Positions 35,699 to 47,529 of a stretch of 64,000 nucleotides of DNA are shown here, piece by piece. The position numbers and the translations under genes are program-made. Origin of the DNA: Solidesulfovibrio alcoholivorans DSM 5433 (lineage in GTDB: Bacteria; Desulfobacterota; Desulfovibrionia; Desulfovibrionales; Desulfovibrionaceae); assembly GCF_000702665.1 (NCBI RefSeq), contig NZ_JNJA01000003.1, forward strand, positions 1 through 64,000, read 5' to 3'. Each line of letters opens with the position of its first letter. Positions within the stretch are counted from its first letter, which is position 1. The notes beneath the pieces were generated by a model, which saw only the letters and a program-made list of their open reading frames with translations, was not told the origin of the DNA and ran no database searches.

Positions 35699-35775
35699 GG
35701 GCAATTAGCTCAGTTGGATAGAGCGTTGGCCTCCGGAGCCAAAGGCCGTAGGTTCGAATCCTACATTGCCCACCA
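35699..35775 (+). tRNA. tRNA-Arg (anticodon CCG)
   Basis: A 77-nt gene with a 7-bp acceptor stem (GGGCAAT with ATTGCCC), D arm, anticodon loop CTCCGGA (anticodon CCG, codon CGG), T arm GTAGG-TTCGAAT-CCTAC and an encoded CCA end. The 3' 45 bp (from 35731) is the left attachment repeat of the element, so the present 3' half was supplied by the element. The displaced original 3' end is at 47485-47529. Confidence 0.95.
35731..35775 (+). repeat. attL core of the 11.8-kb element (inside tRNA-Arg)
   Basis: A 45-bp repeat matched 41/45 by 47485-47529. The four differences are two paired changes in the T stem (GT and AC here against AC and GT there), which keep base pairing in both. It marks the left boundary of the element; crossover lies at or 3' of the anticodon loop. 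Confidence 0.9.
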
Positions 35776-35786
35776 AACGAATTCAA

Positions 35787-35817
35787 GGGGTTACGATGAA
35801 AATCGTGACCCCTTTTT
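35787..35817 (+). terminator. tRNA-Arg terminator carried by the element
   Basis: GGGGTTACGAT and ATCGTGACCCC around GAAA, followed by TTTTT. A homologous hairpin with coordinated base changes follows the right att copy (47541-47570), so the element carries a replacement terminator as well as a replacement tRNA end. Confidence 0.85.
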
Positions 35818-35823
35818 CGTTGA

Positions 35824-35847
35824 GGGGTAGCTGAGGGGTAGCTTGCT
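35824..35847 (+). repeat. Left arm-type repeat near attL
   Basis: A 24-bp sequence built of two tandem GAGGGGTAGC-like units, matched 22/24 at 47357-47380 near attR in the same orientation. The location inside both ends of the element suggests integrase arm-type or excisionase binding sites. Confidence 0.6.
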
Positions 35848-35882
35848 TGCATCGAATGGCCTCCTCGGGCATGACGGGGTTC

Positions 35883-45317: not shown

Positions 45318-47196
45318 AGGGGTTGTCTATAAGAGAGTAGAGGCCGTAGCCGGGTGACTCGACACAGCCGTCCTTGAGCATTTTCCCCAGCAAATACGAG
45401 ACACTAGCCGATGTTTTCTTCAAATATCTGGCGACTTCGGCAGTCTTCACCGGGCGGTCGGCCGCCTTCATCATCTCCATGATGCTCTGACGTTCGCCGG
45501 TCAGCTTCACCTCGATGGCCTTGCCTGTGATCGACCACGAACAGATGAAGTCCGCCCACTCGACGGCGTAGTCCTGACTTTCAACGTCGCGCCCTGTGAT
45601 CCTCAGTTCTGCCGTCTTGGCGTCTCTCTCGCCTGTCAACAGCATGGCCGTGTCCGCCACTCCGAAGATACCGTTGCTGCCCGTGATCCGGTCGAAGGGG
45701 TCGCCCTTGTCCGTGGTCTTGCCCTTGTTCAAATGGGTAATGACCACCACCCCCAGGTGCCGGCGGTCGGCAAGCTTCTTGATCTCGGCAAGGTGCATAG
45801 AGTCCACCTCATAGGCGTTGAAGCCTTTGGGGCGGGTCTTGGGCCTCATCTTGACCAAAGTGTCTATGACGATGAGCTTCAAGTCAGGATTGGCCTCAGC
45901 ATAGGCGTCGAGAGCTTCCAGGCCGCCTTCATCCATTGTGGGCCATTCGGTGACGGCCATCACGTTGTCTAGGCCGACCGCGAGGTCCGGCTGGGGGTCC
46001 ATGATTTTATGAATGCGGTCTTGAAGCCGGCGTCGGGAGTCTTCCAACGCCAGATAGAGACACCGGGCCGGCGTCGTCTCGAATTTGCCGAGGACGGGCA
46101 GGCCGGCACCAATGGCGAGCATGGCCCCCAACGCAAGCCACGACTTCTTCACCTTCGGATTGCCGGCAAGGACGGTCAGACCTTCCGGCAGGAAGCCGGG
46201 GACGGCCCAACGTAGCTCAGGAATATCCATGCGCAGGAGGTCAGATGCGGAGACTATGCCGGCGGCCGGGTTCTTCCCGTCTGCCGTCGTGCCCGGGGTC
46301 CAGGCCGGGGCCTTCCCGACCAGTTGCTCTAACTGGTCCAGCGTCCCGCCTGCATCAAGCCAGTCGGTGACGTCGCCCTTCTCGGATAGGCCGGGCAGGT
46401 TGACCACCTTCACCGACGCAGCGGCCCCATGCAGGGCCTTGGCGACCTTCTGGCCGTGGTCCCGGCCCTTGGTGTCATTGTCGGGCAGGATGACGACGTG
46501 CCGGCCCTTGAAGTGAGGCGTATATTCGTCGCGCCACTTCCCCGCGCCCATGGGGTTGCAGGAGTAGGCCACGGCCAGCTTCCCGACCTCGGTAAAGGCC
46601 AAGGCCGCGTCCATGGCCCGCAGCGACTCCACGTCCTTCTCGCCTTCGACCAGATAGACCGTTTCGGCGCGTAGGACTTCCGGCAGGCGGTAAGGTACGA
46701 GACGGGCACCATTCAGGTTTTGAATGAAGCTCTTCGTCGTCTCGCTCCACTGCCATTGACGAAACGTCTTTTTGAAGCCAATCTTCTCGAACCGGATCAC
46801 GTCGAAAAGAAGTTTCCCCGTTTCGCTTGTATAGTGATAACGGGCCTCGATATTCTCTTCGATGGTCGGTGCATCTTTCAGCTTTCCCGACACGCCGATA
46901 TAATCAACTAGGGTCTTTTTTGCTTCTGGAAAATCGACGCCATCGTTCATCATAACGAACGTAAAGACGTCGCCTTTCTCTTCGCACTTTTTGCAATCCC
47001 AAAGACCCGTCTTTTTGTTGACGTAGAAGTGACCGCCCTTGTCACCGCACAAGGGGCAATTGCAATGAAGGTTGTCACCGTGACCTTTAAGGTCGGGCAA
47101 CTCCTGGTGGAAGAAGGACTCGTAGTTGATGGCCGACTTGATGTCGTCGGTTTCGCGGTCTGATTCGTAGTCCTTACGGATAGTTAAGGGGTTCAT
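45316..47196 (-). CDS. Primase-helicase (CHC2 zinc finger, toprim, RepA-like ATPase, winged helix)
   Basis: A 626-aa replication protein. A zinc finger (CNCPLC and CKKC, about 44-72), a toprim domain (LVEGEKD near 179; ILPDNDTKGRDH), a RecA/RepA-like ATPase with LAGNPKVKKSWLAL near 342 (the last Gly of Walker A is Lys), VIDTLVKMRP and VITHLNKG, and a C-terminal winged helix. It should prime and unwind the element's own replication from the adjacent repeats. Its ATG overlaps a short upstream frame (ATGA). Confidence 0.9.
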   Translation of the reverse strand: MNPLTIRKDYESDRETDDIKSAINYESFFHQELPDLKGHGDNLHCNCPLCGDKGGHFYVNKKTGLWDCKKCEEKGDVFTFVMMNDGVDFPEAKKTLVDYIGVSGKLKDAPTIEENIEARYHYTSETGKLLFDVIRFEKIGFKKTFRQWQWSETTKSFIQNLNGARLVPYRLPEVLRAETVYLVEGEKDVESLRAMDAALAFTEVGKLAVAYSCNPMGAGKWRDEYTPHFKGRHVVILPDNDTKGRDHGQKVAKALHGAAASVKVVNLPGLSEKGDVTDWLDAGGTLDQLEQLVGKAPAWTPGTTADGKNPAAGIVSASDLLRMDIPELRWAVPGFLPEGLTVLAGNPKVKKSWLALGAMLAIGAGLPVLGKFETTPARCLYLALEDSRRRLQDRIHKIMDPQPDLAVGLDNVMAVTEWPTMDEGGLEALDAYAEANPDLKLIVIDTLVKMRPKTRPKGFNAYEVDSMHLAEIKKLADRRHLGVVVITHLNKGKTTDKGDPFDRITGSNGIFGVADTAMLLTGERDAKTAELRITGRDVESQDYAVEWADFICSWSITGKAIEVKLTGERQSIMEMMKAADRPVKTAEVARYLKKTSASVSYLLGKMLKDGCVESPGYGLYSLIDNP

Positions 47197-47267
47197 GCGG
47201 CAACCCCCTTGACAAGGTTTTCAAACTGTGCTATCTGGCCCGCATACCAAGACCGTAAAAGCGGCAT
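47193..47267 (-). CDS. Possible 24-codon leader upstream of primase
   Basis: A short frame (MPLLRSWYAGQIAQFENLVK-) ends in ATGA overlap with the primase start. It may be a coupling leader or the remnant of a longer phage protein. It lacks a clear ribosome site. A longer in-frame reading would run through the att repeat and is not credible. Confidence 0.3.
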   Translation of the reverse strand: MPLLRSWYAGQIAQFENLVKGVAA

Positions 47268-47356
47268 CCGCGAGAATCGCTCGGAGTCACCAGCTCCGGG
47301 CGTTTCTTGTTTTGGGCCGTTGGCCTCGGAAATCCTACGGGGCCAAAGGCCGCCAA

Positions 47357-47380
47357 GGGGTAGCAGAGGGATAGCTTGCT
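47357..47380 (+). repeat. Right arm-type repeat near attR
   Basis: Matches 35824-35847 at 22 of 24 positions, same orientation. Tandem GGGGTAGC/GAGGGATAGC units. Probable integrase or excisionase binding. Confidence 0.6.
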
Positions 47381-47484
47381 GTTGTGAAAATGTGGGGTGA
47401 ACTGTTTTTTCAGCCCGAAAAATTCCTGAAAGATCGTGGCTAGTTAGGGCCAGCTGTGCCCCACTGTTTTCACGCTTTCCCGAA

Positions 47485-47529
47485 CTCCGGAGCCAAAGGC
47501 CACAGGTTCGAATCCTGTATTGCCCACCA
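47485..47529 (+). repeat. attR core: displaced 3' end of tRNA-Arg
   Basis: 45 bp matching 35731-35775 at 41 positions. It runs from the anticodon loop to CCA, with a T stem ACAGG/CCTGT that still pairs. This is taken to be the original chromosomal tRNA end, so the element spans about 35731-47529. Confidence 0.9.

Follow-up and report, generated by a model that had tools for sequence, protein, structure and literature searches.

A putative capsid-forming phage satellite at a tRNA-Arg gene of Solidesulfovibrio alcoholivorans and its tail-less relatives

The inserted element and its gene inventory

A stretch of 64,000 nucleotides from the sulfate reducer Solidesulfovibrio alcoholivorans DSM 5433 (contig NZ_JNJA01000003.1, positions 1 to 64,000), in the following called the window, carries in the interval 35731-47529 a discrete insertion that combines an integrase and a replication gene with the head and packaging genes of a phage. 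The 3' half of tRNA-Arg(CCG) occurs at both ends of the inserted unit (11,754 bp), and the two copies are part of a direct repeat of 86 nt with 84% identity (35731-35816 pairing with 47485-47570), the similarity of the right to the left copy continuing to position 47570 across a terminator-like hairpin. The G+C content of the interval is 0.58 versus 0.61-0.67 elsewhere in the window. The following features were assigned, from left to right, with open reading frames (ORFs) named by their predicted products and attachment sites abbreviated as att.

35699-35775, plus strand: tRNA-Arg(ccg) (ARAGORN); positions 35731-35775, the 3' half that came with the element, form the left att core
35847-37064, plus strand: tyrosine integrase (PF00589, 3.8e-18; phrog_1, 5.3e-47), convergent with every other gene
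37012-37218, minus strand: AlpA-like helix-turn-helix (HTH) protein, excisionase or regulator (PF12728, HTH_17, 27.5 bits at a cut-off of 27; phrog_66, 9.9e-08)
37360-37560, minus strand: p66, small Cys-rich protein, with a counterpart in the related contig L026, there in two frames
37557-37808, minus strand: p83, small Cys-rich protein, conserved in L026 (63%)
37907-38293, minus strand: p128, accessory gene of low G+C (0.375), no relative found in viral contigs
38378-38614, minus strand: p78, accessory gene, no L026 match by BLAST
38684-39175, minus strand: p163, probable MerR-type regulator (model compared with CvkR), conserved in L026, L051 and L052
39299-39658, minus strand: gp6-like head-tail connector of Ad1 type (PF05135, 38.1 bits; phrog_40, 1.1e-19)
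39785-40948, minus strand: portal (PF04860, 5.9e-110)
41135-42865, minus strand: fused S78 prohead protease and HK97-type major capsid protein (PF04586, 22.9 bits at a cut-off of 21, residues 48-144; PF05065, 1.9e-38, residues 297-571)
42878-44389, minus strand: terminase large subunit, TerL (PF20441, 1.6e-38; PF03354, 3.3e-10)
44386-44808, minus strand: terminase small subunit, TerS (PF05119, 3.4e-09; phrog_83)
44798-45148, minus strand: HNH endonuclease (PF01844, 3.1e-10)
45149-45330, no strand: iteron cluster, putative origin, with nine copies of CCTTGAA/TTCAAGG, direct and inverted
45316-47196, minus strand: primase-helicase with CHC2 zinc finger and RecA-like ATPase (PF01807, 3.3e-12; PF13481, AAA_25, 2e-25)
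47485-47529, plus strand: right att core; here lies the host's own 3' half of tRNA-Arg, displaced by the insertion and identical to that of the tRNA in loci L234 and L235

The flanking host genes were traced across the genus in 14 genomes, among them that of S. alcoholivorans itself. They are separated by 12,991 bp in the window; the corresponding gap measures 1,133 bp in genome G174, 2,088 bp in G181 and 1,914 bp in G080, and in the remaining ten genomes the two are on separate contigs or have 45 kb or more between them. In G174 and G181 an intact tRNA-Arg marks the empty site (in G080 the tRNA sits on the opposite strand). The 3' half of the tRNA in G174 and G181 matches the right copy in the window without a difference, which identifies the right copy as the former end of the host gene, displaced by the insertion; the left copy arrived with the element and now completes the host tRNA-Arg. 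Between the two att copies there are four differences, which make up two compensated T-stem pairs (GTAGG...CCTAC versus ACAGG...CCTGT), so that pairing in the tRNA is preserved; the element brought its tRNA end from a different background. The clear ends that a preceding examination of the bare sequence (the original prediction) had proposed are thus borne out by the tRNA-Arg, the 86-nt repeat and the relatives with an empty site. Just beyond the right att site an ORF of 156 aa (47824-48294) has no clear family, and no alignment to G181 or G174 was obtained for the segment 47571-48564.

On the minus strand the genes read, from the right, primase-helicase, iterons, HNH, TerS, TerL, protease-capsid, portal, gp6-like connector, p163, p78, p128, p83, p66 and AlpA. 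The iteron motif occurs nine times within 45149-45330 versus 31 times across the whole 64 kb, which agrees with the origin-like repeats originally proposed, and every gene named in that prediction, from the integrase to the single gp6-like connector, was recovered by Pfam or PHROG matches. Of the further claim that all genes are intact and coupled by ATGA, the first half stands, with all reading frames in the element open. Coupling is partial: by ORF coordinates, TerS-TerL (ATGA), HNH-TerS and p83-p66 overlap, and spacers of 186 nt, 126 nt and 123 nt lie between capsid and portal, portal and gp6, and gp6 and p163.

The ORFs were scanned against PHROGs (15 proteins, E<=0.01) and Pfam (16 proteins, E<=0.1); for the HNH protein, this covers 25 of 28 PHROG families among the matches listed. 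As had been predicted, no tail, tape-measure, baseplate, lysis or CI-type family was recognised among the scanned ORFs, nor were remnants of tail or lysis genes detected in these scans of the element. Connectors of this gp6-like kind are known to join the portal to neck and tail.

The small genes are less readily assigned. Besides a marginal PHROG match (E 0.0085), a model of p163 built from four sequences, with a mean predicted local distance difference test score (pLDDT) of 71.5, matched CvkR (7xn2) in Foldseek with an E-value of 8.3e-5, the sole match below 0.001, so that p163 is probably a MerR-type regulator. The genes p128 and p78, which have no counterpart in L026, look like replaceable cargo. 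A concealed head-closure gene was considered for p128, for which no relative was found among the viral contigs and the single-sequence model is worthless (pLDDT 44.7). As to defence cargo, PADLOC returned nothing for p66, p83, p128, p78, p163 and the ORF at 47824-48294. A cos site was not found; the gap between primase and HNH is not common to L026.

Tail-less relatives of the element

A tail-less relative, L026 (IMG/VR contig 3300028326_000129, 9,795 bp), is collinear with the window in the order HNH-TerS-TerL-capsid-portal-gp6-p163-p83-p66-AlpA, again without a tail, and ends at AlpA before any integrase. Protein identity decreases from TerL (93%), portal (90%), capsid (85%) and TerS (83%) over gp6 (74%) and HNH (71%) to p163 (56%) and AlpA (43%), and p66 is split across two frames in L026. 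Among ten gene pairs tried, all eight that could be computed have a rate of nonsynonymous substitution (dN) below that of synonymous substitution (dS). The YN00 method failed for nine of the ten pairs and succeeded for TerL only (dN/dS 0.066/1.417, omega 0.047). By NG86, the values are 0.099/1.192 for portal, 0.120/0.647 for capsid, 0.179/1.176 for gp6, 0.150/2.679 for TerS, 0.234/0.659 for HNH, 0.346/2.55 for p163 and 0.554/2.72 for AlpA, with no dS obtained for p66 and p83.

Nucleotide similarity between the two begins at HNH, with primase and iterons outside. L026 differs from the window in having another primase beside another iteron sequence (GAAGAATCC type) and no match to p128 or p78. 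Primase and adjoining iterons (window 45149-47196; L026:1-2180) are swapped as one unit between otherwise collinear elements; initiator and origin are thus exchanged together, as expected of a replicating element.

Many relatives were collected by TerL searches, a second TerL scan of viral contigs retaining 80 of 284. Genes in 162 loci were called by a codon-usage script of our own, which covers 80-92% of four contigs with terminal repeats, and home-made hidden Markov models (HMMs) gave a core hit in 157 loci besides the window. TerL, capsid and portal occur in this order, or in a circularly permuted or partial form of it, in 100 of the 157 (86 after removal of near-identical TerLs), a count that excludes the window and takes in a few tailed or possibly tailed loci, namely L059, the probably tailed L031, L177 with its ambiguous layout, and phage KppS-Ant. 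A scan of named genomes contributed 23 of the 100 (17 Alphaproteobacteria, two Desulfovibrionaceae, two other Deltaproteobacteria, one Planctomycetota and one unplaced); its search patterns were derived from these same TerLs, and the host make-up is no census.

An integrase lies downstream of the portal in 62 of the 100 loci (54 non-redundant), at a median distance of 604 bp and at most 3.4 kb, and TerL start and integrase end are 5.96-9.77 kb apart. In 22 of these loci an integrase has a tRNA nearby, at a distance of 500 bp or less. A second exact copy of the tRNA end (15-49 nt) is present in 16 of the 22, 15 of which are distinct, and the other six have none within the stretch examined. The 15 units bounded in this way by att copies measure 10.05-11.15 kb, with a median of 10.44 kb. 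Equally, four of 109 viral stretches, some of them only partial contigs, end in exact repeats of 24-141 nt and assemble as circles of 9.9-10.6 kb. Such a near-constant length might be the consequence of a dedicated small head, which would impose a size limit.

With respect to gene content, 23 of the 24 unassigned ORFs in the terminal-repeat contigs were compared with PHROGs and matched 24 families, none labelled tail or lysis, the 24th being a DUF3987 protein. An earlier scan covered 61 unassigned ORFs from a list of 79 in 15 loci, 18 having been left out as mostly short, kin repeats or near contig ends. It gave one tail label among the matches listed (25 of 38 families), namely phrog_12296 'tail fiber', a family of 86 positions, which matched ORFs of 88 aa between capsid and protease (L146:8325-8588 and L161:7373-7636). 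At this position the label appears doubtful, and it was not read as a tail. At least one unassigned ORF of the terminal-repeat contigs (L138, L144, L118, L160) matches several PHROGs labelled transcriptional repressor, so that at least one of these relatives has a repressor, unlike the element in the window.

The 10-11-kb relatives, exemplified by L054 from Humidesulfovibrio, L076 from Pseudolabrys and L179, with hosts in Desulfovibrionaceae, Alphaproteobacteria and other groups, share with the window the succession TerL-capsid-(protease)-portal-integrase at a tRNA gene and the lack of a tail. In contrast to the window, the protease is separate in 94 of the 100 loci, and the integrase is encoded on the TerL strand in 61 of the 62 instead of being convergent. 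The capsid proteins of L085, L088, L171 and L179 (566-579 aa) contain an LSIGY motif and are encoded without a separate protease gene having been found; Pfam finds no S78 domain, and a protease-capsid fusion is likely also here. Relatives with tail genes in the same block, or the lack of any tail-less kin, had been named beforehand as evidence that would speak for a deleted prophage. The search for either yielded the tail-less L026 and 15 att-bounded elements that leave no room for a tail.

Relation to known capsid-forming satellites

The control locus L064 of Escherichia coli O157:H7 EDL933, which we take to be the capsid-forming phage-inducible chromosomal island (cf-PICI) EcCIEDL933 and whose gene content fits, is ordered int-HTH-...-primase-...-capsid-protease-portal-head closure-connector-HNH-TerS-TerL. 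It has in common with the window the integrase, an AlpA-like HTH protein, a primase, the order of capsid, protease and portal, a connector, HNH, a P27-type TerS, TerL and the absence of an annotated tail. On the other hand, the packaging genes of EcCIEDL933 follow the head genes, whereas HNH-TerS-TerL precede them in the window; protease and capsid are separate in the former and fused in the latter; and a head-closure gene and a gene for a single-stranded DNA-binding protein are annotated in EcCIEDL933 only. The original prediction had regarded two traits as distinctive that have to be given up as such. The capsid gene precedes the portal gene also in the E. coli locus and in the 100 loci described above, and the protease-capsid fusion is already known (PHROGs 617 and 4523), with a long capsid before the portal present also in a tailed E. 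coli prophage. What sets the element apart from EcCIEDL933 is the position of its packaging genes, their ancestry, and the group of hosts.

Trees were built with the labels satellite and tailed assigned from gene order and annotation alone, L059 having been labelled tailed before its adjoining stretch was examined. In the TerL tree (20 satellite versus 16 tailed rows, L063 being left out for its long branch), the window, L026 and L107 form a clade with support 100/100 inside a group of 18 satellites that also holds five HK97-type tailed rows, with EcCIEDL933 placed elsewhere. Satellites require three changes in this tree, none of the 200 bootstrap trees (0%) contains a single satellite clade, and one that includes EcCIEDL933 is rejected by the approximately unbiased (AU) test (p 0.0008). 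A quick capsid tree equally groups EcCIEDL933 apart from the window. A quick portal tree (28 versus 18 rows, support 86) had been calculated without the closest tailed portals; with five of these added and the rest thinned, 22 satellites including EcCIEDL933 form one side of a branch versus 17 rows labelled tailed, at a support of 73/82 that is not significant.

That the element descends directly from the enterobacterial cf-PICIs, as a member by ancestry in a new host, would account for the same kinds of genes, the shared order of capsid, (protease) and portal and the portal branch. It is nevertheless unlikely in view of the TerL and capsid trees and of packaging genes on the opposite side of the head genes. 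Rather, the element probably works like a cf-PICI with a terminase acquired independently of that of EcCIEDL933. The definition of cf-PICIs used here follows PMC10690885 and PMC10448857; an AlpA homologue and the replication initiator Pri-Rep are given as signature genes in an excerpt of the latter. In the window these would correspond to the AlpA-like HTH protein and, by domain type, to the primase-helicase with its CHC2 and AAA_25 domains and adjoining iterons. Known cf-PICIs fall into three separate capsid radiations according to a passage of PMC11389934. MulchRoom and MiniFlayer, satellites of Streptomyces phages, also encode their own capsid and packaging genes; the passage of PMC10690885 that describes them reports virulent helpers and no homology to cf-PICIs, and they are set beside the window by this description only. 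A further locus, L186 (LR881103.1, 16,548 bp), deposited in GenBank as 'phage' vB_KppS-Ant and recorded as an induced prophage, arranges its head and packaging genes as EcCIEDL933 does and falls beside it in all three trees (TerL, portal and capsid); its TerL is followed by an ORF of 765 aa that is annotated as tape measure.

The satellite reading and its alternatives

Taken together, the insertion at tRNA-Arg, the head and packaging set without a recognised tail gene, dN below dS in comparison with a tail-less relative and the many elements of near-constant length argue that the element is an integrated satellite of phages, building a DNA-filled head of its own and relying on a helper phage for the tail, a reading that we consider very probable and that agrees with the cf-PICI-like character originally proposed. 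As judged from the protein families, integrase and AlpA would excise the element upon induction of, or infection by, a helper, and the primase-helicase would replicate it from the adjoining iterons. By means of TerS, TerL and HNH, a genome of unit length might then be packaged into a small head of HK97 fold, which the fused protease would mature, and portal and gp6-like connector would accept the neck and tail of the helper. In the timing of this programme the MerR-type p163 could replace a CI repressor.

Several observations weigh against this satellite reading. The gp6-like connector is the single neck protein recognised in the window, without a head-closure protein, while the E. coli locus is annotated with both. 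The protease domain match exceeds the Pfam cut-off by a mere 1.9 bits, and the TerL tree, as described, rejects a single satellite clade that includes EcCIEDL933. For the region upstream of TerL, the lack of tail genes holds only for the loci checked there, namely the window, L026, the terminal-repeat contigs and the att-bounded units. With HMMs of gp6/gp7 type, no neck protein was recognised in 35 of the 62 loci with a downstream integrase (30 of the 54 non-redundant ones). Finally, none of five families searched in the genome of the strain pointed to a helper: PF20441 and PF04860 matched this element alone, and PF10145, PF04865 and PF13550 gave nothing. The missing head-closure protein, the unrecognised neck genes and the lack of an evident resident helper are the weak points of this reading and at the same time its most interesting ones.

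The lack of an evident helper is no objection, since EcCIEDL933 was mobilised by HK106 and HK446 while the 17 prophages resident in its strain all failed to do so, as stated in a passage of PMC11389934. The gp6-like connector was also tried as a pointer to the helper and rejected, as in ten others of 288 genomes of the family it gave weak partial matches, the best with 58% over 43 residues, which are too weak; eight of the ten genomes also have TerL hits, with TerL directly followed by a portal match, the usual phage order. A prophage in the same genus (G080, loci L233 and L059) encodes a portal, a gp6-like connector and head completion and tail completion proteins, and it is only a suggestion that this type of prophage could serve as helper.

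The missing neck genes and the missing helper markers would also suit an autonomous small virus or encapsidated plasmid, which forms a tail-less particle, enters by vesicle or contact and needs no helper tail, and the terminal-repeat contigs do occur in a viral collection. This alternative is very unlikely: the window and L026 keep a gp6-like connector, with its role between portal and tail, no lysis gene was found in the scanned window ORFs, HMMs of gp6/gp7 type can miss divergent neck genes, and cf-PICIs are said, in a passage of PMC10690885, to depend on their helper for tails only. Within the satellite reading, a more far-reaching version places the element in a large lineage of capsid-forming satellites, 10-11 kb long and hosted by Alphaproteobacteria, Desulfovibrionaceae and other groups, with a terminase of separate origin from that of EcCIEDL933; many members of this lineage would have dropped every neck protein, so that the portal would dock directly on the complete neck and tail of a helper, or entry would be tail-less; as a whole this is possible but doubtful.

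A decayed prophage, in which the genes for tail and lysis of a once tailed phage of HK97 type would have disappeared in this strain, is highly improbable: although simple deletion could produce the window layout from an arrangement like that of the tailed EDL933 prophage in L063 (TerL - long capsid - portal - connector), and although the G080 prophage combines neck and tail-completion genes with a related TerL, L026 has a matching block, likewise without a tail, in which dN is lower than dS in the computable pairs, the TerL of the window clusters with those of L026 and L107 and not with the Desulfovibrionaceae prophages labelled tailed, the att-bounded tail-less relatives are near-constant in size, and the reading frames in the window are open.

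As hosts of cf-PICIs, mainly enterobacteria and Firmicutes are listed in a part of PMC10803314. On the other hand, a passage of PMC10690885 calls cf-PICIs widely distributed across Bacteria with the groups unnamed in that passage, so that the host range may be partly known. In a limited search of titles and abstract openings for satellites in Desulfovibrio or Alphaproteobacteria, no publication reporting this lineage was found. If the interpretation is true, a tail-less lineage of near-constant length in sulfate reducers and Alphaproteobacteria, with a terminase ancestry of its own, would mean that capsid-forming satellites have been assembled more than once. The way in which heads that lack a tail of their own, and in some cases any recognised neck, acquire a tail would become open to testing, and sulfate reducers would possess a new vehicle for gene transfer. 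In another genome of the same family (G010), three related tail-less elements (L050, L051 and L052) are present, each in a stretch at a contig end.

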